Source: Bacteroidota bacterium (GTDB lineage Bacteria > Bacteroidota > Bacteroidia > Flavobacteriales_C > GCA-002722245). From it: a DNA stretch of 64,000 bases. Below, in pieces: positions 15,475 to 43,697 of this stretch. The DNA lies in the NCBI GenBank assembly GCA_026390935.1, contig JAPLEZ010000153.1, forward strand, positions 68,052 to 132,051, in the 5' to 3' direction. Below the pieces are notes generated by a model that had not been told where the DNA came from, made no database searches, and saw nothing but the letters and a program-made list of their open reading frames with translations. A program made the translations under genes and the position numbers. Numbering within the stretch: the stretch's first letter is position 1; each line of letters opens with the position of its first letter.

Positions 15475-18400
15475 ATGAGTAAAAAAGGTACTAGTATATT
15501 TTCGTTTGTTTTCCTGTTGATGTTTGCAAACTCGTTTGCGGGTGTGAATACTCCCTTTGAAAAATCGATAGGTTTTGGTGATGTGTTTAATCAAAGCGCT
15601 CGCTTCACAGAAAACAAAGGTCAGTTGAAACATTACAAGATCGACTGGTCACAATGTGGAAATATTGTCTTTTACACCCAGTCGTTTGGTGGTACCGCGT
15701 ATTTCGCCGAGAATGGAATTGGTTTTGGATTCATCAAGGAAAACCTCGACCAGAAAAAACATCCTAAAAAGCTGGAGAGTGAAGAAGAGGAGGAAGAAAG
15801 ATCTTATACAAGCACCGGATTTTTTTTAGAATTTATAGGGAAAAATACAAATTCCCGAGTAGTTGGCGTTGGTAAACAAATTTCGAAATTCAATTATTAC
15901 TGTGGTTCAAGTCACATCAGCGACGTGTCCAATTACGATCAGGTGTTGTATGAAAATCTGTACAACAATATTGACTTGAAATATTACATGGGCAAGGGCC
16001 AGTTGAAATTCGATTACATTGTTAAGCCGGGTGCCGATATCAGTCAGATTCAATTGCAATACAACGGCATGAAAGAAGTGTCGGTGAATAAAAAAGGAGA
16101 GCTGGAAATTTTAACCAACTGGGGCATTTTAATCGACAAAAAACCTTATTCCTACCAAATTATTAACGGTCAGCAAGTGCCGGTAAACATCACTTACAAA
16201 GAATATGAGAATGGCAGGATTGGTTTTGAAGGAAGCTACGATCACAGCATAGAATTGATCATTGATCCGCCAACATTAACATGGGCAACGCTGATAGGCG
16301 GACCTAATGGCGACGGTTATTTTTATGACATCACTATGGATGAAAGTGGAAATATATATGGTACGGGGTGGTACAGTAATTCTTTTCCAAAAGTGAGTGC
16401 AGCTGATAATGTTAGTAATGGAGTTGAGCCTTTTGTTTTTAAACTTACACCCGATGGAACAACTTTGCTTTATGCTACTTTTTTAGGAGGAAATGCCAGC
16501 GGGAATGATGAAATAGGAACCGGCATCGCAGTAAATAAATTGGGAGAAGCTTTTGTGTGCGGACATACTACAAGCGCAGTGAGTTTTCCTACCGCAGGTA
16601 GTCCCGTGCAATCTGTAATTGCAGGCGGATTTGACATTTTTGCAGCAAAATTCAGTGCTACCGGGGCATTGATTTACTCTACTTTTTATGGAGCAACTGG
16701 TGATGACAGGGCTTATGCCATCGACATTGATGCGCTAAACAATGCATTTATTACCGGATATACCACTTCAACAAGCGGATTTGCAAGCGGCGGGGCTTTT
16801 CAAACGGTTCATGGTGGTGCAATGGATGCTTTTGTATTGAAATTAAACCCTGCCGGAAGCGCCGTTTTATTTTGTACTTATTTCGGAGGAACAGGCAATG
16901 ATTTAGGAAGAGATATTGTGGTGGATTTAGCAGGCAGTCCATACATTGGAGGAGGAACAACATCGGCCACCGGAATTGCAAGTGTGGGTTCATACGACGC
17001 TACTCTTGGCGGCGATGTAGATGGTTTTGTGGCTAAGTTTAGTACCAACGGAGCATCAAGAATTTATGGAGCTTATGCTGGTGGGACCAATCAGGATAAG
17101 GTTGAATCGGTAGATGTTAAATGTAATGGAGAACTGGTGATGTCGGGTTATACCCGTTCGGATTCCCCGTCTTTTGTAAGTGTAAATGCTATCCGGATGA
17201 ATAATGCTGCGCCAGGCGGAGGTCCTCGTGATGCTTTCATGCGCAGGGTTAGTCCCGATGGAAGCACCTTACTCAATTCAACCTTTATGGGTGTTTGGGG
17301 TGAGGATGCAACCAAAAACGGAGATCCTTTTGGGTTAACTGTACAACAAAGAGGGACTTCAGTTAGCGTGAACCGAAGAGGGAATATTGCAGTAGCATTT
17401 TGTACGGGAACAAATGGTCATCCTTTGGTTTCGCCTGTTCAGGCCACCGTTGGCGGAGGCGCTCCTGATTTAGGGGATGCGTATTGTTTTGTCACCGATT
17501 CATTGGGATCAAGTATTGTTTTTTCAACTTATTTTGGAGGAACTCAAAACGATTATCCAACAGCAGGAGTAAAGTACCATCCTGTTAACGACCACATCTT
17601 TGTCATTGGAGGATCATCCCATTCTTTGAATGGTTCATTGCCATTGACACCCGGAACTTATTTAACCGCAGGAACTGGTACGGGGGATTATCCTTATGTG
17701 GTTTTATATACCAATGTTCCCTGTGAAATTAAAGTGGATCTCCCTCTTCCGGCTGCTGTGTGCAAAGGAGAAAACATGACTTTTTCGGCGGATACTTTAT
17801 GTGGTGATAATGCACCTACTTTTCAATGGTTGGTGAATAATGTAGTGCAGGTGGGGGCAACAGCAAAAACTTTTACCACCAATACACTCAATAACAACGA
17901 TGAGGTATGTGTTGTTTTTAGTAAAATAATTCCAGGTTGTTTTCCGGTGGTGGAAGACGATACTGCTTGTGTGAATGTGGTCATTAAACCTTTGCCGGTG
18001 GTGACTTTGGCCGATGATTCTATTTGTGCAGGTAAGAATGCTGTGATTGATGCAGGTACCGGTTTCGACGATTATTTATGGTCGAGTGGGGAAGCTACTT
18101 CCAGCATTACAAAATCAGTGGCGGGAACGTATTGGGTAGAAGTCACGAAAAATGGCTGTAAAGACAGGGATGCCATGAATCTTTTGGAGCGACCGGTTTT
18201 ATTTATTTTACCCGATTCTGCTAAAACCTGCAATGTAAGTAACAGCGGTTATGTAGTTACTTTTAAAATTGGTGGAGGTGATCCAACATCTTATAAAGTT
18301 ACGGGATTGGCAGGGACTTTAACAGGAAATTCTTTTACAAGCAATCTTATTACTTCCGGAAATTCTTTCTCTTTAATTGTTACCGACAAACACAATTGTG

Positions 18401-20439
18401 ATACAGTAACCTTCAGCGGAACTTTATCCTGCGGATGTAATCCTGTAGTGACTTTAACATCGGATACCTTAATTTGTAAAGGCGCCAGCGCTCCAATTAA
18501 ATTTAATTTGTCGGGAGCGGTTTCTCCTTACGATGTAGTGTATACCGATGGCACGAGCAATTTTACCTTAACAGGAATTTCTGATGGATTTGTGCAAAAT
18601 GTGAGTCCGGGAAGTACCACCGTTTACACTGCGGTTTCCATTACCGATAAGAACGGATGCACAGCTTTGTCAACAAACAAAATGACGGTTACTGTGGCTC
18701 CTGTTTTTCAGTTGCTGGTTTCTCCATCACACGTTACTTGCTTTGGAGCGTGCAATGGTTCGGCGGAAGCTACGCCGTTAAATGGCGACGGACCCTATAC
18801 TTACTTCTGGTCGCCGACACCTCCTTCCGGACAAGGAACTGCCACTGCTTCGCAATTGTGTGCGGGAACTTATCAGGTTTTGGTAACCGATAAACATGGC
18901 TGTAAAGATTCTGTTTCACCTGTATTGATAGAGCCTCAAAAATTAAATTACACTTTGGATTCCACTGTGGCGCATTGTGGCCAGTCGGATGGAAGTGCTG
19001 GAATCACAGTTGTTTCAGGAGGAAACGCTCCTTTTGATTATCAGTGGGACAGCAAAACGGGCGCGCAGGTTACGCCAACAGCCAGCAACTTGAAACCCGG
19101 TGTTTATACGATAGTACTCACTGATAATAAAAATTGCGTCACCACCGATTCTGTTGAGGTTTTGAATGTTCCAGCGGTTACTTTTTCATCAGTATTTACG
19201 AATCCATTATGTACTTCCGATTGTAATGGAAGCGCTGCGTTAAGTAATATTACCGGCGGTACGCGACCATTTACTTACACCTGGACGAGTCCGCTGGGTG
19301 TCACGCCAACTATCGTCGATTCCTCTGCATTGGCGATGTGCGCTGGAAATTACAAAGTGGTTTTAAAAGATAAATTCAACTGTAAAGATTCTACTACTTT
19401 TAATCTTGTTGATCCAACGCCGGTGCAAATTTCTGTGAGTCCATCTGTAAGAACTTGTGTAAGCATATCTCAGCAACTTACAGCGCTTGCTAATGGTGGA
19501 ACTCCAAATTATAGCTACACTTGGTTGAATGATGCAACTTTAAGCAGTACTGTCATTGCTAATCCTTTGGCCACTCCAGGAGGAATAAAAAAATATACGG
19601 TGAGCGCCAAGGATGTAAACAATTGTCAGTCGCCAAGTGTGTCTGTAGTTTTGATTTCAAATCCTTTGGCCGATTTTTCTTTTGATTCGGTTCCAGATTG
19701 TAATTCAGTTGAAGTTACTTTTACTAATACTACAACAGCATCTACAGTAAATCATTCTTGTTCCTGGGATTTCGGCAATGCAACTACTTCAGCAATATGT
19801 GATCCTATTGTTGACTTTGCTCCTGGAAATTATAGTGTGAAGCTTACTGTGACTGATGATAGTTCATGTGTAAATACTATAACGAAAAATTTATATCTCA
19901 AAACTCATGCGCTGCCAATTCCTGCATTTACAAGTGCACCGCAGCCAACCACTATTTATGATCCATTGATTTCCTTTGTAAATCTTTCTTCAGGCGCAAG
20001 TTCTTATTCATGGCATTTTGGAACTGGTGATAGTTCTAAGTTGATCAATCCGTATTACACCTATGCTGATACTGGTTCTTACAATGTTTGTTTGAGGGTT
20101 GTAAATTCTTTAGGCTGTTACAGAGATACCTGTTCCATTGTTCGAATAAATCCTGTTGTGTCTTTTTTTATTGCTAATGCTTTCACGCCAAACGGTGATA
20201 ATGTAAATGACGATTTCAAACCTTTCATGACAGGATATGCTACTGACGATTACGAGTTTTTAATTTTCGATCGTTGGGGAGAATTGATTTTCAAAACAAA
20301 TGATATTAATGCAGGATGGGATGGATCCTACAAGGGACAAACGGTGCAGAATGATGTATACGTGTGGAAGATAAGATCGCGTGAGGAGTATAACCACGAT
20401 TTACATCACAGAATAGGGAGAGTTTCTGTGGTCAGATAA
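15475..20439 (+). CDS. Giant secreted SBBP-repeat/PKD-domain protein with gliding-motility-type (T9SS type B) C-terminus
   Basis: 1654 aa; repeated FYGATGDDRAYAIDIDALNNAFITGYT / YFGGTGNDLGRDIVVD SBBP repeats, CSWDFGNATTS PKD-like, C-terminus FFIANAFTPNGDNVNDDFKP...YEFLIFDRWGELIFKTNDINAGWDGSYKGQTVQNDVYVWKI. Confidence 0.92.
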   Translation: MSKKGTSIFSFVFLLMFANSFAGVNTPFEKSIGFGDVFNQSARFTENKGQLKHYKIDWSQCGNIVFYTQSFGGTAYFAENGIGFGFIKENLDQKKHPKKLESEEEEEERSYTSTGFFLEFIGKNTNSRVVGVGKQISKFNYYCGSSHISDVSNYDQVLYENLYNNIDLKYYMGKGQLKFDYIVKPGADISQIQLQYNGMKEVSVNKKGELEILTNWGILIDKKPYSYQIINGQQVPVNITYKEYENGRIGFEGSYDHSIELIIDPPTLTWATLIGGPNGDGYFYDITMDESGNIYGTGWYSNSFPKVSAADNVSNGVEPFVFKLTPDGTTLLYATFLGGNASGNDEIGTGIAVNKLGEAFVCGHTTSAVSFPTAGSPVQSVIAGGFDIFAAKFSATGALIYSTFYGATGDDRAYAIDIDALNNAFITGYTTSTSGFASGGAFQTVHGGAMDAFVLKLNPAGSAVLFCTYFGGTGNDLGRDIVVDLAGSPYIGGGTTSATGIASVGSYDATLGGDVDGFVAKFSTNGASRIYGAYAGGTNQDKVESVDVKCNGELVMSGYTRSDSPSFVSVNAIRMNNAAPGGGPRDAFMRRVSPDGSTLLNSTFMGVWGEDATKNGDPFGLTVQQRGTSVSVNRRGNIAVAFCTGTNGHPLVSPVQATVGGGAPDLGDAYCFVTDSLGSSIVFSTYFGGTQNDYPTAGVKYHPVNDHIFVIGGSSHSLNGSLPLTPGTYLTAGTGTGDYPYVVLYTNVPCEIKVDLPLPAAVCKGENMTFSADTLCGDNAPTFQWLVNNVVQVGATAKTFTTNTLNNNDEVCVVFSKIIPGCFPVVEDDTACVNVVIKPLPVVTLADDSICAGKNAVIDAGTGFDDYLWSSGEATSSITKSVAGTYWVEVTKNGCKDRDAMNLLERPVLFILPDSAKTCNVSNSGYVVTFKIGGGDPTSYKVTGLAGTLTGNSFTSNLITSGNSFSLIVTDKHNCDTVTFSGTLSCGCNPVVTLTSDTLICKGASAPIKFNLSGAVSPYDVVYTDGTSNFTLTGISDGFVQNVSPGSTTVYTAVSITDKNGCTALSTNKMTVTVAPVFQLLVSPSHVTCFGACNGSAEATPLNGDGPYTYFWSPTPPSGQGTATASQLCAGTYQVLVTDKHGCKDSVSPVLIEPQKLNYTLDSTVAHCGQSDGSAGITVVSGGNAPFDYQWDSKTGAQVTPTASNLKPGVYTIVLTDNKNCVTTDSVEVLNVPAVTFSSVFTNPLCTSDCNGSAALSNITGGTRPFTYTWTSPLGVTPTIVDSSALAMCAGNYKVVLKDKFNCKDSTTFNLVDPTPVQISVSPSVRTCVSISQQLTALANGGTPNYSYTWLNDATLSSTVIANPLATPGGIKKYTVSAKDVNNCQSPSVSVVLISNPLADFSFDSVPDCNSVEVTFTNTTTASTVNHSCSWDFGNATTSAICDPIVDFAPGNYSVKLTVTDDSSCVNTITKNLYLKTHALPIPAFTSAPQPTTIYDPLISFVNLSSGASSYSWHFGTGDSSKLINPYYTYADTGSYNVCLRVVNSLGCYRDTCSIVRINPVVSFFIANAFTPNGDNVNDDFKPFMTGYATDDYEFLIFDRWGELIFKTNDINAGWDGSYKGQTVQNDVYVWKIRSREEYNHDLHHRIGRVSVVR

Positions 20440-28170: not shown

Positions 28171-30318
28171 ATGGCAATTATTCAAAAAATCAGAAACAGA
28201 TCAGGCTTGATGTTAGTGGTAATCGGCGGCTGTTTGGTACTTTTTATACTCAATGATGCTTTGTCCAAAAGTGGCGGCATGAGCGACGGAGATCCAAATT
28301 CTGTTGGTGAAGTAGACGGAGTTAAAATTTCTCGTGAAGAGTACAACCAGTTTGTAACTAGCATGGAAAACAATGCGCAGCAACGCGGACAAACGCTTAG
28401 CGATTACAACAAACAACAATTCAATGAGCAGGCTTGGAACACTTTAGTGGATCTGGCTATCAGAGATGAGGAGTACGATGCCGTTGGTATTTCTTCCTCT
28501 GATGATGAAGTAACCGATATGTTTTTTCAAGATCAGTACGTTCAGTATTTCTCTAGAAAACTAGGCGTTAAAGCCGAAGCGGAAACACTACGAGAAGCTA
28601 TTAAGAATACCGACAATAAAGAAGTGCTTGCTGAAGTGGATTTGTACGAGCATGAAATTCGCCGTCAATTGAATTACATGAAATACCAACGTTTGGTACA
28701 AGCTGGTTTTATCCCAACTCAGGCTGAAGCAAAATATCAGTACGAGTTGAATACAATTACTAATGCTTTCAGAGTGGCGATGCTTCCTTATTCCACTGTT
28801 GTGGATTCAACCATCAAAGTGTCTGAAGATGAAATTAAAGAAGCTTATAACAAAGAGAAAGACAATTACAAACAAAAAGAAAGCAGAGATATTCGTTTTG
28901 TAGCTTTCAGAGTAGAAGCATCTGCTGCTGATGAGGCAAAAGTTAGAGCCAAACTTGATGAAGTTAAAACCCGTTTCGCAGCTTTTAAAGGCAATGACGC
29001 TATTTTTGTGAATACAGAATCCGATGGAGCTAGCGCAGCAGAAAACACTTATTTCGCTAAAGGGAAAGGACTTCCTGCAATTATGGATAGTTCCTTCGCT
29101 GCTTTACAAGAGGGGCAAATTTTTGGACCATACATGGAATTCAATGGTTCTAAAAAAGTGCTGAAATTGGCTAAGGTAAGTAAGGTGAAAATGTTGGCCG
29201 ATTCTGTGAAAGTGAAACACATTCTTATTTCTGTAAGAGGCGCGGAAAACATCCCTGGAAGCGAAAACTTCCATTTGACCACTCAACAAAGAATGATGGA
29301 TGTGACAGATTCACTGGAGAAAATATTGAAAACAAAACCTGAGCTTTTTGACCAAATGGTGATGAAGCATTCTGACGATATTATGAGCGCCATTAAAGGT
29401 GGTGACATAGGATGGATAAGTAAAAGCTCACAATATGAGGCTTTGTTTGATTCATGCATGCTGGCGAAAGAAGGAACAGTTGTGAAAGTGTTTTCCAACA
29501 GAGATGGTATGCACCTTGTGAAAATTGTTCAACAAGGAACTCTGATGAAGAAAGTAAATGCTGGAATTATTTCCCGTGAATTGCGTCCGTCACAAGAAAC
29601 CTTGAATCAATTGTATGTTACTGCCAACGATTTTTCAGATGCTTTGAAAGGTGGTAAAAATATTGACACCGTGGCTGCTGATCGTCATTTAACCGTTGCG
29701 CAACATGGTGGTTTAACTAGAAACGACTTATATGTTAATGGTTTGGAAGGAGCAAGAGGAATTGTTAAATGGACTTTCAATGCTAACGTAGGTGAGGCTT
29801 CTTCTGTTTTTCAACTAAGCGAAAATTATGTTGTTGCTGTAGTTGAAAAAGAATTCAAAGAAGGAGTTAAGTCAATAGAGGACGTGAAAAAAGAACTTGA
29901 AGCGAAGTTGAATCTTGAGAAAAAAGGAGTGATGCTTGCTGAAAAAATTAACGCAGCTTTAGCAAAGGGAGAAAATTTGGATCAATTGAAAGCTAAATTT
30001 CCTGAATTGATTTTAGATAGCATTCCAGCAACACCAATCGGTGGAAGTTTGGCTCAATTTGGTAATGAGCCTGACGTAATGGGAATGGCAGCTGCAATAC
30101 CCGTGAATAAGCTTTCAAAAGCTATAGTTGGCAAGCAAGGTGTTTATGTGGTGTTGGTGCACAAGCGTGATGGGGGATCTTTCCATAAAATTAAAGATTA
30201 CTCTCCTGAGCAAAATGATATAGCACAAAAAACAAAGACTTTGGTAGAGCAGTTTATAAGTGAAGCACTTAAAACTGGCGTAGATATTGAAGATGGTCGC
30301 TTTGAAAAAATGGACTAA
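28171..30318 (+). CDS. SurA/PpiD-like peptidylprolyl isomerase
   Basis: 715 aa, N-terminal TM (SurA N-like) and parvulin segment VKVKHILISVRG...MVMKHSDDIMSAIKGGDIGWISKSS. Confidence 0.9.
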   Translation: MAIIQKIRNRSGLMLVVIGGCLVLFILNDALSKSGGMSDGDPNSVGEVDGVKISREEYNQFVTSMENNAQQRGQTLSDYNKQQFNEQAWNTLVDLAIRDEEYDAVGISSSDDEVTDMFFQDQYVQYFSRKLGVKAEAETLREAIKNTDNKEVLAEVDLYEHEIRRQLNYMKYQRLVQAGFIPTQAEAKYQYELNTITNAFRVAMLPYSTVVDSTIKVSEDEIKEAYNKEKDNYKQKESRDIRFVAFRVEASAADEAKVRAKLDEVKTRFAAFKGNDAIFVNTESDGASAAENTYFAKGKGLPAIMDSSFAALQEGQIFGPYMEFNGSKKVLKLAKVSKVKMLADSVKVKHILISVRGAENIPGSENFHLTTQQRMMDVTDSLEKILKTKPELFDQMVMKHSDDIMSAIKGGDIGWISKSSQYEALFDSCMLAKEGTVVKVFSNRDGMHLVKIVQQGTLMKKVNAGIISRELRPSQETLNQLYVTANDFSDALKGGKNIDTVAADRHLTVAQHGGLTRNDLYVNGLEGARGIVKWTFNANVGEASSVFQLSENYVVAVVEKEFKEGVKSIEDVKKELEAKLNLEKKGVMLAEKINAALAKGENLDQLKAKFPELILDSIPATPIGGSLAQFGNEPDVMGMAAAIPVNKLSKAIVGKQGVYVVLVHKRDGGSFHKIKDYSPEQNDIAQKTKTLVEQFISEALKTGVDIEDGRFEKMD

Positions 30319-30443: not shown

Positions 30444-31016
30444 ATGAACGAAAAGGAAGTAATAGAAGGTTGTATTAAGGGCAATGAAAGGGATTTTAAA
30501 ACCTTTTACAGCCACTTCTATGGGAAAATGTTCCATGCCTGTGTGCGCTATGCAAAAGATAGAGAAGAGGCGAAGGATATCGTGCAGGAAGGATTTTTGA
30601 GGGTTTTTAAAAATTTGGATCAGTTTGATTTTAAAGGTTCTTTAGAAGGTTGGGTGCGAAGGGTGATGGTGAATTCGGCAATTAATCATTACAGGAAGCA
30701 AATGAAGGACATTATCAATTATATGGAAGACGATAAAGTGGTGTATCTTGAAAAGCACGAGGAGGAGAGTTATGAGTCGCCCGAAAATATTTCCTCGGAG
30801 CAACTTTTGGCTATGGTTCAAAGTCTGACTCCCGTTTATCGCACCGTTTTTAATTTGAGTGTGATGGAAGGATTTTCTCACAAGGAGATTAGTGAATCTT
30901 TGGGAATTACTGAGAGTACCTCGCGATCAAATTTGGCTAAGGCACGAATTAAATTACAAGAAATGGTGAATAAGCAGTTGGTGAAAATTAATACCCATGA
31001 AGCGCATGGAAAATAA
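30444..31016 (+). CDS. ECF RNA polymerase sigma factor
   Basis: 190 aa; AKDREEAKDIVQEGFLRVFKNLDQFDFKGSLEGWVRRVMVNSAINHYRK (region 2) and SVMEGFSHKEISESLGITESTSRSNLAKARIKL (region 4). Confidence 0.94.
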   Translation: MNEKEVIEGCIKGNERDFKTFYSHFYGKMFHACVRYAKDREEAKDIVQEGFLRVFKNLDQFDFKGSLEGWVRRVMVNSAINHYRKQMKDIINYMEDDKVVYLEKHEEESYESPENISSEQLLAMVQSLTPVYRTVFNLSVMEGFSHKEISESLGITESTSRSNLAKARIKLQEMVNKQLVKINTHEAHGK

Positions 31017-32445
31017 AATAGACGACTTATTTAAATCTGGTTTGAATAATCTTCCTGAAGAATTTCCTTCAGAGCAGGATTGGTCGGCACTTAAAAAAGA
31101 GCTGAACAATGCCGGATTGATAGATAAAAAGGACAATAATAAAAGGAGATTTTTCTTTTGGATGTTCAGCGGATTGCTGATCACTGGCCTTGCTGCATTT
31201 GCTCTTTATAATAGCAATACAAAGAATGCTGATGCAAAAAATGAGGTTGCAAAAGAGAACCTTGCTGTTGCGGAAATGCAATATTCAAAAGAGGAAAATT
31301 CAGCAAATGAAAGTGTGGAATCTGTAAAGGAATTTCACGAAGCTGTGTCCAAAAATCATGAGCAGGTTGAAGTGCCCGTTGACAAAAAAGAAGAAAAGTC
31401 TACAGTGCATAAATCCTCAGTTTCTTCTGCTCCTACTGCATTAAAACAGAAATTTACTACTGTAAAAAATAACAATGAGTATTATGAGAAAAAAGATGCG
31501 GAGAGTACTTCTCCTGTTGAGCCGATAGCGCAAAATCCAGAGTCTAAAAATGAAGTTCAACGCGAAGATAATTCTGCTTCAAATTTTAATGAGGTTAAAG
31601 TTAATGAGCCTGCAGAAGAAATAGTTGTTTCGGAAAATGTAAATAATAGTAATCCCATCGCTGCTGATACTGCATTTGGTGCATTGGTATCATTGGGCGA
31701 TTCTTCAGTTGTTGTTGCAAAATTGGATACTCCTGCAGTTGATATTGAAAAAGATGATAAGGTTGTTGATGACGTTTTATATCGTAAATTTTGGGGTGGA
31801 GGAATGCTTTCTTTGGATTATGATAATTACAATGTAAAGGCTGCAAATGACCAAGGTTCATATTTGTTGCATTCTTATGAAAGTGGGAATCAAGGAGCTT
31901 TAAAATACAGTGCCGGACTTTCTTTCGGTTATCGTTCTAGTAAATGGTTTGCTGTTTCTGCGGATGTTTTGTACTCGCAAAAGAAGGTGGTTGATGAACA
32001 TTTTGAAGCACCTGCAGATTCATTGACTTCTGATGCCAATTTCAATCTCTATCATTACAATCTGCAAGCAAAATATTTGGATGTGATTGTGAAACCAAGA
32101 GTTTATGTGTGGCATAAAAAATTCTCAGCTTACGTTTTTCCTGGCGTGGTAGCTTCGTTTAATTTGCCGGGGATGAAAGACAAAAGTTATTTCACTAAAT
32201 CGCAAATTACTGCTGATGGTTATATACAAGATAAAATCAATCTTGAGTTTTGGTCGGCAGGATTTTCATTGCTTGGTGGAGTAGGCGTTGAATACGATTT
32301 AAAAAATAATTGGAAAATTTCAGGAGAATTCTCTTATCGTCAGAGTTTAACTCCTGTAATTCAACATGCAACATACACAGGTATGCCATTGACGTTTTAT
32401 TCCAATTCTGTTAATGCAAACGTGGGCATCTATAAATATTTTTAA
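31006..32445 (+). CDS. Probable dual-membrane anti-sigma protein: N-terminal cytoplasmic segment, TM, periplasmic linker, C-terminal OM beta-barrel
   Basis: MENKIDDLFKSGLNNLPEEFPSEQDWSALKKELNN...RRFFFWMFSGLLITGLAAFALY (TM), low-complexity Glu/Lys/Ser/Val linker, then KFWGGGMLSLDYDN...AGLSFGYRSSKWFAVSADVLYSQKK...SAGFSLLGGVGVEYDLKNNWKISGEFSYRQSL...NANVGIYKYF. Overlaps sigma gene. Confidence 0.75.
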   Translation: MENKIDDLFKSGLNNLPEEFPSEQDWSALKKELNNAGLIDKKDNNKRRFFFWMFSGLLITGLAAFALYNSNTKNADAKNEVAKENLAVAEMQYSKEENSANESVESVKEFHEAVSKNHEQVEVPVDKKEEKSTVHKSSVSSAPTALKQKFTTVKNNNEYYEKKDAESTSPVEPIAQNPESKNEVQREDNSASNFNEVKVNEPAEEIVVSENVNNSNPIAADTAFGALVSLGDSSVVVAKLDTPAVDIEKDDKVVDDVLYRKFWGGGMLSLDYDNYNVKAANDQGSYLLHSYESGNQGALKYSAGLSFGYRSSKWFAVSADVLYSQKKVVDEHFEAPADSLTSDANFNLYHYNLQAKYLDVIVKPRVYVWHKKFSAYVFPGVVASFNLPGMKDKSYFTKSQITADGYIQDKINLEFWSAGFSLLGGVGVEYDLKNNWKISGEFSYRQSLTPVIQHATYTGMPLTFYSNSVNANVGIYKYF

Positions 32446-33492
32446 ATGAGAAGTCTTGTTCTAATAGTTTTCGGTGTTTTGGTGTTGAGCATTTTTCCAG
32501 TGTCTTGCAAAAAAGATACGTTGGAAAGTACCATCACAAAATCCGATACGACTGTGGTTCGCGAAAGACTGCATCAGTTTGAGCCCGAAACACAAACATT
32601 TGAAATTCCTTCAAATCAAGCAGCAATACTTACTGGAAAAAATGGAGTAGTGATTCATGTTCCTGCCAATGCTTTTACCGATGATAAAGGAAATTTGATC
32701 AATGGAATTGTGAATATTGAACTTAAAGAAATGCTCACATTGAGAGATCAAATCACCACTGGTTATCGTGCTTCATCACTTCATAAGACTTTAATATCAG
32801 GCGGTGCTTTTTTTCTAAATGCGCAAATCAACGGACAGAAAGTTACGCTTGCCGATAGTCAGTTCATTAGTGTTGAAGTTCCTGCTTTAAAAGTGGACAG
32901 CACCATGAATGTTTTTATTGGAAATGAATTGGGTGTATTTAAAACTGCAACTTCCTTTGATTGGGTGCTTGCAGATGCTACTTTTAAAAAGCTCATTACT
33001 GATACGGCCGGTTGGGATACCATTACCAAGGCTTGGAAAATTGATTCATCATATGTAAATGCTTACGACCTGTCTTTTGGAGTAAATAAGTATATTTTGA
33101 AAATACACGATATGTTTAATTCTAACTTATATAATGTTGATCGTTTTGCAAATCTTAATCCTGTTTTTTCAATATTGCCTTGCACTATAAATGCTGTCAG
33201 TGATGCAACTCAGGAAGTCATAGATTTTAACGTGCAAATTTTGTATAAGCAATATTCAAGTGTTGGTTGGGGTGAAACAATGGGGCTTGTTACCAATAAC
33301 ATTGTTGTTAATGTTGAGCAAGAGTGGGCCGCAGGTGAAGAAGTAATTGTGGTGGTAATTGGCGTTGGCAAAACAAGTAAGAAAAGTTATTTCGGTAAAA
33401 CCGCTTTTAAAATTGCTGCCAATTCAAAACCTGTAATTGATATTGTTCCGATGAGCGACGAAGAGTTGTCGACTGCATTAGATAAGCTATAA
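32446..33492 (+). CDS. Lipoprotein, paralog 1 of 3
   Basis: FPVSCKKD lipobox; NGVVIHVPANAFTDDKGNLINGIVNIELKEMLTLRDQITTGY (ZU5-like strand pattern); VVVIGVGKTSKKSYFGKTAFKI; starts immediately after preceding stop. Confidence 0.8.
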   Translation: MRSLVLIVFGVLVLSIFPVSCKKDTLESTITKSDTTVVRERLHQFEPETQTFEIPSNQAAILTGKNGVVIHVPANAFTDDKGNLINGIVNIELKEMLTLRDQITTGYRASSLHKTLISGGAFFLNAQINGQKVTLADSQFISVEVPALKVDSTMNVFIGNELGVFKTATSFDWVLADATFKKLITDTAGWDTITKAWKIDSSYVNAYDLSFGVNKYILKIHDMFNSNLYNVDRFANLNPVFSILPCTINAVSDATQEVIDFNVQILYKQYSSVGWGETMGLVTNNIVVNVEQEWAAGEEVIVVVIGVGKTSKKSYFGKTAFKIAANSKPVIDIVPMSDEELSTALDKL

Positions 33493-33516: not shown

Positions 33517-33551
33517 AACCTGCTTCACTTTTGTGAAGCAGGTTTTTTTAT
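33517..33551 (+). terminator. Intrinsic terminator after lipoprotein paralog 1
   Basis: AACCTGCTTCAC-TTTT-GTGAAGCAGGTT (12-bp perfect) plus T-run. Confidence 0.9.
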
Positions 33552-33638: not shown

Positions 33639-34718
33639 ATGGAAATTATGAATTACAAATCAACATCTATCAAAACTATGATGCTCGGGGCAATTGCCTT
33701 AAGTATTTTCGCTGCATCGTGCAAAAAAGATACGCAAGAAATATCTAAAGCAGATGTAGAAGCGGTAGACAATCTTTTAAGCAAAATGGATCCTGAAATG
33801 CAATCGTTTACGATTGATGCATCCCAACCCCAAACCATTACCGGCACAGAAGGAACGGTAATTAATATTCCTGCCAATGCATTTGTTGATGCCAACGGAA
33901 ATGCGGTAACGGGCAATGTTACTATTTCATTAAAAGAAATTCTAAGTCTGAAAGATCAAATTACTTCAGGTGCTTATGCTGTTTCAAATGGTGAGTTGTT
34001 GAAATCTGGCGGAGAATTTTTCTTCGAGGCAACAGCCAATGGAGCAAAATTAAAATTGGCTATGAATCAATACATTACTTTCGATATTCCAGCTAGTGAA
34101 GTAGATTCTACAATGCAGGTGTTTATAGGGCAGGAAGTAAGCGACGATTCTACAGGATCAAATGTGAATTGGGTTCCTGCCGACACGTCCGAATACAAAA
34201 CCGCTGTTTTGGATACTGTATGGAATCCAAAGGACACGATCTGGACAACCGATACTGCTTATCAGGCTACTTACCAGTTGTTTATGGGTTTGAATAGTTA
34301 TACTATGAGGGTTTATGATATTTATAATACTTCTTACTACAATTGTGATCATTTTTACGGCTCCCCAAAATTGATTTCGGAGCTGCCTGTTACCATCACA
34401 AGTACCAACAAGGAACTAGACGAAGTAATTGATTATAGGATTCAATTAGTTTATAAGCAATTGGGTAGTGTAGAAGGTGCTTATAGCTCTGAATTTGGGT
34501 ATAATATGCAGATTTTTGATAATACATTTTCGGGCAACATTTATTCTTCTTGGTTAACAGATGAAGATGTAACCGTGATTGTGGTGGGTGTGGGAAGCAA
34601 ATCTAAGAAAGCATACTTTGGTAAAACAAGCTTGAATATTAAATCTAATTCAAATCCTTCTATATCAATAAGTACGATAAGTGATGCTGAATTAGCGACA
34701 GCTTTGGATAATTTATAG
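33639..34718 (+). CDS. Lipoprotein, paralog 2 of 3
   Basis: MNYKSTSIKTMMLGAIALSIFAASCKKDTQE...GTVINIPANAFVDANGNAVTGNVTISLKEILSLKDQITSG...VGSKSKKAYFGKTSLNI. Confidence 0.82.
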   Translation: MEIMNYKSTSIKTMMLGAIALSIFAASCKKDTQEISKADVEAVDNLLSKMDPEMQSFTIDASQPQTITGTEGTVINIPANAFVDANGNAVTGNVTISLKEILSLKDQITSGAYAVSNGELLKSGGEFFFEATANGAKLKLAMNQYITFDIPASEVDSTMQVFIGQEVSDDSTGSNVNWVPADTSEYKTAVLDTVWNPKDTIWTTDTAYQATYQLFMGLNSYTMRVYDIYNTSYYNCDHFYGSPKLISELPVTITSTNKELDEVIDYRIQLVYKQLGSVEGAYSSEFGYNMQIFDNTFSGNIYSSWLTDEDVTVIVVGVGSKSKKAYFGKTSLNIKSNSNPSISISTISDAELATALDNL

Positions 34719-34742: not shown

Positions 34743-34774
34743 ACCTGCTTCATTTACTTGAAGCAGGTTTTTTA
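34743..34774 (+). terminator. Intrinsic terminator after lipoprotein paralog 2
   Basis: ACCTGCTTCA/TGAAGCAGGT stem plus T-run; same core as terminators at 33517 and 35938. Confidence 0.88.
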
Positions 34775-34854: not shown

Positions 34855-35916
34855 ATGATAATTATGAATTACAAATCAACATCCATTAGAACTATAATGC
34901 TAGGCGCAATTGCCTTGAGCATTTTTGCCGCGTCTTGTAAAAAGGATACACAAGAAACAACTAAATCAGATCCTGCTGCTATAGATAATCTCTTAAGTCA
35001 ACTGGATTCCGAAACGCAGTCATTTACAATTGATCCTTCACAGCCCAACACCCTTACTGGTGCTGATGGAACCGTGATTCACATCCCAGCAAATGCTTTG
35101 GTAGATGCCAATGGTAACGTAGTGAGTGGAAATGTAACCATCACTTTGAAAGAAATGCTTTCTATTAAAGATCAAATCACTAGCGGTTTTTCTGCTACAT
35201 GCAATGACAGTATATTGAAATCGGGCGGACAGTTTTTCTTTGAAGCAAATGCCAACGGTCAAAAATTGAACGTGGCTGTAAATCAAGAAATAACTTTCGA
35301 GATTCCGGCCGAAAAAGTGGATACTACTATGCAAGTATTTATTGGAAATAATCCGAAAGGCGATGAGGACTTCACCTGGTTGCCTGCTGATGATTCTGCT
35401 AATGCGGTATTAGTAGTTGATAGTGTATGGAATAATAAGGATACTGCATGGAACGTCGTTAATTCTTATCAACCAGCTTATGGATTGGAGTTTGAATTGG
35501 GTAAGTATATCATGAAAGTGTCTGATTTATATTACACATCTTATTTCAACGTTGATCAATTTATTGATTATGCTACCTATCAAGGTTGGGTAAGCGCGAT
35601 GCCATGCACAATCACCGCAACAGGCAACACAGAAGAAGAATCTATCGATTTCACTGTGAAATTAGTGTATAAAAAATATGGCGCTTCTGAATTCTTTACC
35701 AATCAAGGTGTGGTAGTTAAAAGTACGAACATGACTGTTAATGATGAATTTCCTGTAGGAGAAGATGTGGTAGTGTTAGTGATTGGAATAGGACAAAAAT
35801 CGAAGAAGACCTATTTTGGAAAAAGCGCATTTAAAATCGCAAATGAATCAGCACCAACTATCAATGTTAGCTCAATGAGCGATGCTGAATTGTTGACGGC
35901 GTTAGATAATTTGTAA
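34855..35916 (+). CDS. Lipoprotein, paralog 3 of 3
   Basis: MNYKSTSIRTIMLGAIALSIFAASCKKDTQE...GTVIHIPANALVDANGNVVSGNVTITLKEMLSIKDQITSGF...IGQKSKKTYFGKSAFKI. Confidence 0.82.
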   Translation: MIIMNYKSTSIRTIMLGAIALSIFAASCKKDTQETTKSDPAAIDNLLSQLDSETQSFTIDPSQPNTLTGADGTVIHIPANALVDANGNVVSGNVTITLKEMLSIKDQITSGFSATCNDSILKSGGQFFFEANANGQKLNVAVNQEITFEIPAEKVDTTMQVFIGNNPKGDEDFTWLPADDSANAVLVVDSVWNNKDTAWNVVNSYQPAYGLEFELGKYIMKVSDLYYTSYFNVDQFIDYATYQGWVSAMPCTITATGNTEEESIDFTVKLVYKKYGASEFFTNQGVVVKSTNMTVNDEFPVGEDVVVLVIGIGQKSKKTYFGKSAFKIANESAPTINVSSMSDAELLTALDNL

Positions 35917-36954
35917 GATTTTTTGTTGGATAAGTTTGGCCTGCTTCATTTTTTTGAAGTGGGCCTTTCTTTTGGAGAGGATTTTTATTATTTCGTTCAT
36001 TATTTCATTTCTTTCTTCTTCATTTAATCCGGGAGGAAGATAAAGACAGCGTTCACTGCCTTTTAAGATATTTTGTTGCTGCAATTTTTTTAGTGCCCTG
36101 TTACAGCCAAAATTATTCAGCCATAAAATGCTCCCAAAATTATTCATCAGTCCGAAAGGAAATTTGTTTTTTAGTTTTTTGTTGAGCGACTCGCAAAGTT
36201 CGGTGCCTTGTGCGTTCCATTCTAAAAAAGAGCGATGAGCGGTGTTGTTTAAATTCTCTGTAATTTTTTTGCAAGCTAACAATCCTTCTGCCTTAGGAGC
36301 AAATGTTCCGGGTAGGAAAGCTTCATCAAAAAAATCGGGAGAGTGGGCTAAGGCACCGAGGGGAATGCCAAGGGAAAGATTTTCACCAAGCAACAGGGCG
36401 TCTGCTTGAAATTGAAAAATAAAATTAAGCCCTTTTTGATGAATGCGTGCGATAGTTTTTCTTTCGTCGAGAAAGAAAGGAATATCGCTCCCGGAACATA
36501 ATGTCCTAAGAGAGTGGATCCTTTGATTGTAATCAACTGATTTTTGGATCAGCAACAAAGGATCAAGAATTAAGGCAGCCACTTCGCTGGTTCTTTCAGA
36601 AAGAAAGGCCTTTGCGCCACGCAGCTGATATATATAGGAAAAGTTAGGCTGGGAGAATTTTTGAGGAAAACCCAAATACAAAATTTTTTTGTTGGGTTCT
36701 TTCTTCTTGTAGTACTCACTTAAAAATTGGAAGGTGCTTTTTTCTGATCGGAAAAATGAAGTGCTTTCAAATCCTGTAATTGTTGTTAATGCGCTTTCAT
36801 TCTCTCGAATCAATGAGGAGACTTTGCCTTCGATATGTCCGATTTCTAAATTTTGCTGAATGAAATTTTTGATGTCTCGTTCTGAAGGAAGAAAATTCTT
36901 TCGCTCCTGCTTCTGACGATTTAATACTGATGTATTTGTTTTTTGATCTTTCAT
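35902..36954 (-). CDS. PLP-dependent transferase fold type I (class III aminotransferase-like) protein, apparently lacking the catalytic Lys
   Basis: PFFLDERKTIARIHQKGLNFIFQFQADALLLGENLSLGIPLGALAHSPDFFDE resembles the DE...LGK(x)GGGxPxGA region of glutamate-1-semialdehyde-type aminotransferases, but with E/N where K is expected. Confidence 0.55.
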   Translation of the reverse strand: MKDQKTNTSVLNRQKQERKNFLPSERDIKNFIQQNLEIGHIEGKVSSLIRENESALTTITGFESTSFFRSEKSTFQFLSEYYKKKEPNKKILYLGFPQKFSQPNFSYIYQLRGAKAFLSERTSEVAALILDPLLLIQKSVDYNQRIHSLRTLCSGSDIPFFLDERKTIARIHQKGLNFIFQFQADALLLGENLSLGIPLGALAHSPDFFDEAFLPGTFAPKAEGLLACKKITENLNNTAHRSFLEWNAQGTELCESLNKKLKNKFPFGLMNNFGSILWLNNFGCNRALKKLQQQNILKGSERCLYLPPGLNEEERNEIMNEIIKILSKRKAHFKKMKQAKLIQQKILQII

Positions 36955-43166: not shown

Positions 43167-43697
43167 TTGAACTTTGAAGCACTATATCATCAACACAAGC
43201 GCATGGTTTACAACCTTGCTTTGAGTTATCTTCAAAATCATGAAGATGCTCAGGAGGTCACGCAGGATGTTTTCGTGTCGGTACATCAATCCATTGAAGG
43301 GTTTAATAAGCAGTCGACATTCAGCACGTGGATTTACAGAATCACCATCAACAAAGCGCTGGATTTTATTCGTGCTAAAAACAGAAAAAAACGCTTTGCA
43401 TTTTTCTCTTCTCTGTTTCATGAAAATAGCGGTGAAGTTAAATATGAAAGTGTGGGCTTCGACCATCCCGGAGTGGAACTGGAAAACAAGGAAGCGTTGG
43501 AAAATATTTTTGCCCAAATCAACACTTTGCCAGAAAATCAGAAGACAGCATTGATCTTAAGTAAAATTGAAAAATTGTCGCAAGTGGAAGTGGCCGAAAT
43601 AATGAATTTATCGGCGAAAGCTGTGGAGTCATTGCTAGGAAGAGCAAAGGAGAATCTCATGAAAAAATTGAATGAACGAAGGATCAACGAAAATTAA
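43167..43697 (+). CDS. ECF RNA polymerase sigma factor
   Basis: QNHEDAQEVTQDVFVSVHQSIEGFNKQSTFSTWIYRITINKALDFIRAKNRKKR; LSKIEKLSQVEVAEIMNLSAKAVESLLGRAKENLMKKL. Confidence 0.94.
   Translation: MNFEALYHQHKRMVYNLALSYLQNHEDAQEVTQDVFVSVHQSIEGFNKQSTFSTWIYRITINKALDFIRAKNRKKRFAFFSSLFHENSGEVKYESVGFDHPGVELENKEALENIFAQINTLPENQKTALILSKIEKLSQVEVAEIMNLSAKAVESLLGRAKENLMKKLNERRINEN

Follow-up and report, generated by a model that had tools for sequence, protein, structure and literature searches.

Can a single protein inform a cytoplasmic sigma factor of the state of the outer membrane? The question is raised by two overlapping genes in the window, by which we mean the whole 64,000-nucleotide stretch of DNA analysed here, which comes from an uncultured member of the Flavobacteriales. 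An ECF sigma gene (30444..31016, + strand, 190 aa) is followed by a second gene on the same strand (31006..32445, 479 aa), whose product an earlier note on this DNA had put forward as a candidate anti-sigma protein reaching across both membranes. Signalling of the FecI-FecR-TonB receptor type passes the state of the outer membrane to an ECF sigma factor. The present locus would share with that type a sigma factor kept informed of the outer membrane, but a single polypeptide seems to reach across both membranes here, and the operon is without a TonB receptor gene. This gene content would agree with the suggestion in the earlier note that the protein could act without a separate receptor of that kind.

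In what follows, we describe the predicted architecture of the protein, its relationship to known systems, the lipoprotein genes behind it and the promoter motif that they have in common. Our reading, which we hold with a probability of roughly three in four, is that the locus encodes an envelope-signalling circuit of the Dma/Reo type (Dma, dual membrane-spanning anti-sigma) with a compact, autoregulated lipoprotein regulon. Its observed basis is the gene order, the predicted fold, homology and a common promoter motif limited to the locus.

Architecture of the sigma factor and its neighbour

Both reading frames were recovered at the positions given in the earlier note. The sigma protein matches the Pfam models for region 2 (Sigma70_r2, E = 1.3e-15) and region 4 (Sigma70_r4_2, E = 3.5e-16) and has SigH, SigW and RpoE as its relatives in the PDB, while its family matches are to general ECF families only. 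The gene that overlaps the sigma stop codon starts at 31006 (MENK...) or, alternatively, at 30997 (MKRMENK...). Its product had been described as a charged N-terminus, one transmembrane (TM) helix, a low-complexity stretch and a barrel-like C-terminus, and hydropathy, Pfam and AlphaFold2 all bear this description out.

The predicted sigma-binding part is the N-terminal cytoplasmic segment (residues 1-40; 31006..31125, + strand). AlphaFold2 places helices at residues 3-14 and 23-35, Pro21 and Trp26 are conserved, and in the alignment of relatives this cytoplasmic segment is better conserved than the TM helix or the tether. The short N-terminus is followed by a single predicted inner-membrane TM helix (residues 41-68; 31126..31209, + strand), which has its hydropathy peak at residues 49-67 and is spanned in the model by a long helix that begins at residue 41. 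The periplasmic tether (residues 71-254; 31216..31767, + strand) comprises about 184 residues rich in Glu, Val, Lys, Ser, Asn and Ala. It is predicted to be disordered: no confident structure was obtained for any part of it (pLDDT near 30 and below 50 throughout), and its mean pairwise identity among relatives is 0.19.

The C-terminal domain (residues 261-479; 31786..32442, + strand) matches both PF13505 and PF13568 above their cut-offs (E = 1.1e-7 and 4.4e-7). It is modelled as a barrel of eight membrane strands, seen as blocks with a pLDDT of 93-96, with short turns (2-4 residues) on one side, long loops on the other and alternating hydropathy in most strands; the protein ends in KYF. Foldseek matches of this domain include OmpA, OmpX, Ail, NspA and OmpW. 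Structure prediction, which the earlier note had named as the check on a C-terminal barrel, thus came out in favour of one of the OmpA/OmpX type, and its location in the outer membrane is a prediction. The AlphaFold2 model was built from a 14-sequence alignment and has an overall pTM of 0.45, a low value that is expected because the middle of the protein is disordered. A sequence search of solved structures gave nothing convincing for this protein.

Relationship to known dual-membrane systems

The two-membrane architecture itself is already known, and the Bacteroides family mentioned in the earlier note does exist. Bacteroides thetaiotaomicron has the dual membrane-spanning anti-sigma proteins Dma1 and Dma2, together with Das1 and Das2, and removal of dma2 raises the expression of the das2 sigma gene and its neighbouring genes (PMC13088901). 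In the EcfO-Reo system of Phocaeicola vulgatus and B. fragilis, the anti-sigma protein spans all compartments, the system is needed for three nigD lipoproteins, and the anti-sigma mutant has 15 differentially expressed genes (PMC9308784, PMC13114119).

A search against Bacteroides-type relatives, also proposed earlier, connected the protein to this group at both ends. The comparison set consisted of five Bacteroidales-type loci in which the sigma-Dma pair has a NigD gene as its neighbour, identified by that nigD linkage and not as the named B. thetaiotaomicron Dma1/2. Profile alignment (hhalign) of six window-clade proteins with these five gave a probability of 96.7% for the barrel and 83.8% for the first 75 residues, the E-values being those of single comparisons. 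Homology and predicted structure therefore support the identification of the 31006-32445 protein as an anti-sigma candidate of the Dma type.

With the Dma family the candidate has in common an N-terminus with a predicted anti-sigma role, a TM helix, a disordered tether, a C-terminal barrel and an adjoining ECF sigma gene. The neighbours differ: dma2 stands next to DUF4943/DUF4858 genes and dma1 has NigD1 as its effector, whereas here the partners belong to an unnamed lipoprotein family and the predicted promoter sites lie only at the locus. EcfO-Reo likewise pairs a sigma factor with an anti-sigma protein spanning all compartments and has three paralogous lipoproteins in its regulon, as is predicted here. 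Its lipoproteins are NigD proteins and its regulon is wider, whereas the window lipoproteins are not NigD; by Pfam, the NigD_N domain is absent from this genome.

Lipoprotein genes

Downstream of the sigma-Dma pair lie three paralogous lipoprotein genes, all on the + strand. The first (32446..33492, 348 aa) is part of the sigma operon, its ATG abutting the stop codon of the dma gene; the second is at 33648..34718 (alternative start 33639) and the third at 34864..35916 (alternative start 34855). Each of the three transcription units is closed by a terminator-like hairpin, with predicted intrinsic terminators 3' of lipoprotein 1 (33517..33544), lipoprotein 2 (34743..34768) and lipoprotein 3 (35938..35965), all on the + strand.

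The lipoprotein cysteine, found in lipoprotein 1 within SCKKDT, is invariant in 20 aligned relatives. The mature start CKKDT is a partial fit to the surface-export signal of Bacteroidetes, with one acidic residue compared to the optimal C-X-K-(D/E)2. Lipoprotein 1 is modelled confidently (pLDDT 86, pTM 0.81). No Pfam model matched the family above its cut-off, Foldseek returned nothing at an E-value of 0.001 or better (only a partial likeness to the pilotin fold), and a sequence search of solved structures gave nothing convincing. The family domain occurs in 205 of 395 genomes, often not adjoining a Dma pair.

A promoter motif limited to the locus

Comparison of upstream regions brought out a common ECF-type motif, CAGGCAGCG-N15-TTGTCTT, and the predicted promoters described here are matches to it. 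It stands before the sigma operon (P1, 30381..30411, + strand), lipoprotein 2 (P2, 33583..33613, + strand) and lipoprotein 3 (P3, 34800..34830, + strand), with its 3' end 32-34 bases upstream of the start codons used; none would be expected from shuffles of the window. Because P2 and P3 have the same sequence, they amount to a single observation, P3 being likely a duplicate of P2. A looser form, CAGGCAGC-N15-20-GTCTT, has three matches in the window against 0 in shuffles, and its only matches in the 3.76-Mb genome are three, all at the locus. Even when as many as two mismatches are tolerated, the stricter 31-bp form finds the same three genome sites only. Reversed controls in the genome gave none for the looser form and one match for the stricter form (up to two mismatches). 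The regulon may extend beyond three units, since sites that are more degenerate could exist.

The motif recurs in relatives. It is present in exact form at the sigma operons of three genomes (G002, G004 and G016), as a 30-bp variant in G692 and with one mismatch in G662; in G002 and in G004 it is also found at a lipoprotein gene. The exact motif is absent from G001, G003 and G005-G007, relatives that have no Dma ortholog. One-mismatch matches away from the locus in G662 and G002 have no window-type lipoprotein beside them and were treated as chance.

Gene neighbourhoods and sigma clades

Relatives have sigma-adjacent proteins of the same architecture with 27-52% identity. The close relatives, which come from two congeneric species and from a single genome in a different family, all have the order sigma, Dma, lipoprotein. 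The same-genus relatives are labelled Flavobacteriales, and the feature thus falls within Bacteroidota. Triads of sigma, Dma and lipoprotein genes in the same direction were found in G002, G004, G016, G662 and G692. Two other arrangements, one with two lipoproteins upstream of the sigma-Dma pair (G623) and one with a divergent lipoprotein (G712), were rejected as members of the same subfamily, as their sigma factors fall outside the triad clade on long branches. Sigma-Dma-like pairs without a window-type lipoprotein are common in other families, and several of these are followed by LVIVD, PKD or YceI proteins. The A3 profile has matches in 343 of 395 genomes, but since it also catches plain barrels, this figure was not accepted as a tally of Dma proteins.

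A tree of 31 sigma factors places the six from same-direction triads in a single clade (98/97), and among the labelled rows one origin is needed for each of the LVIVD-, PKD- and YceI-linked groups. As judged from this tree, sigma clades follow the partner gene, be it the window-type lipoprotein, LVIVD, PKD or YceI. The predicted promoter type also varies from sigma clade to sigma clade. GCAGC-N17-21-GTCTT is found in 6/6 sigma upstream regions of the triad clade and in 0/25 others, and GGCAACC lies upstream of seven of the eight sigma genes in the clade to which the YceI-linked systems belong (shuffled mean 0.02).

A single-sequence search found no Dma paralogs in the genome, and the family profile found two further sigma-Dma-like pairs on other contigs (L105:2179-4154 and L106:2498-4409, contigs 9 and 69), which are sisters in the sigma tree and are without the promoter motif described above. 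One odd candidate for an anti-sigma protein is encoded 3' of an ECF sigma gene (L026:1495-3288); it is a TM protein that combines the Plug domain of TonB receptors with a von Willebrand A domain. A search of plasmid records gave no match.

Other genes of the window were recorded alongside. A SurA/PpiD-like periplasmic chaperone gene (28171-30318) lies directly upstream of the locus; it was rejected as a member of the system, its neighbourhood being kept in the genus and not in G016. A second ECF sigma gene (43167-43697) is, by position, unrelated to the sigma-Dma system. The gene at 15475-20439 encodes a product of 1654 aa that carries DUF7948, SprB repeats and PKD domains and has a type IX secretion signal of the CHU_C type.

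The proposed circuit and its alternatives

By analogy with Dma2 and EcfO-Reo, we propose a circuit of sigma sequestration, release on disturbance of the outer membrane and autoregulation. In the resting state, the N-terminal helices of the Dma protein would keep the ECF sigma factor at the inner membrane, with the barrel seated in the outer membrane; sigma binding by this segment is suggested by homology and gene linkage. The trigger may be a disturbance of the outer membrane or of the surface loops of the barrel, or a failure of barrel assembly. The tether would then relay the change inward and the sigma factor would be freed. Once free, it would transcribe its own operon (sigma, anti-sigma and lipoprotein 1) as well as lipoproteins 2 and 3 from the predicted promoters. 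The lipoproteins would be the output, in a role that matches that of the NigD lipoproteins in Phocaeicola.

Output is the most likely role of the lipoproteins, and the main rival is that they act as co-sensors on the barrel, reporting the external state, with their induced synthesis damping or reinforcing the circuit. The barrel has features that would suit such contacts, as invariant residues lie in or at the edges of loops L3 and L4 (F385-P388, Y395, F396, P450, Y457 and P461). Furthermore, the N-terminal domain of the lipoprotein is found within larger TM proteins encoded directly 3' of sigma-like genes (L031, L032 and L035, all in the same genome, L085 and L094), so that it recurs in sigma signalling; these proteins resemble anti-sigma proteins of the single-membrane kind or related signalling proteins. 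However, work on the best-studied relative treats its stress-induced surface lipoproteins (NigD) as outputs of the regulon (PMC13114119), and we regard the co-sensor role as unlikely.

We give considerably less credence to a reading in which the TM helix is a cleaved, extended signal peptide, with the barrel an outer-membrane protein in its own right and only the N-terminal fragment acting on the sigma factor. Alanine motifs such as ADA do occur some residues past the TM helix, where signal peptidase could cut, but their position is not fixed in relatives, the order of TM helix, tether and barrel is constant in the 14 family members compared, and the Dma/Reo relatives have been described as crossing both membranes. 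Least credible of all is a reading without anti-sigma function, in which an ordinary outer-membrane protein is simply encoded behind a sigma gene: the Pfam family in question includes many plain barrels, which the A3 profile catches as well, but the linkage to sigma genes is conserved in many families, the gene overlaps the sigma gene, and the conservation of the cytoplasmic N-terminus exceeds that of the TM helix and tether.

Implications

A Dma/Reo-type circuit with lipoproteins as its output thus remains our preferred reading, and the locus has the look of a small surface-signalling circuit that is complete in itself. Dma/Reo proteins have so far been studied in a few gut Bacteroidales, with NigD lipoproteins dominating. 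The same design appears here in another lineage, with a sharply defined motif and only three transcription units in the predicted regulon. What is new is the compact and (by prediction) autoregulated circuit, the new lipoprotein partner and the clade-specific promoter, all without NigD. With a predicted regulon of only three units, the signal of the barrel and the role of the lipoproteins could be addressed without interference from a wide regulon.

A broader and quite speculative reading, which we think improbable as a whole, is that anti-sigma systems of the dual-membrane type are built as modules throughout Bacteroidota, with a separate promoter signature and envelope partner for every sigma clade (window-type lipoprotein, LVIVD, PKD, YceI or NigD), and that in the window clade the surface lipoproteins are both product and ligand of the barrel, closing a feedback loop across the outer membrane. 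For the family at large, the way in which promoter and partner gene go with the sigma clade offers a route to predicting the output of other dual-membrane systems from sequence.
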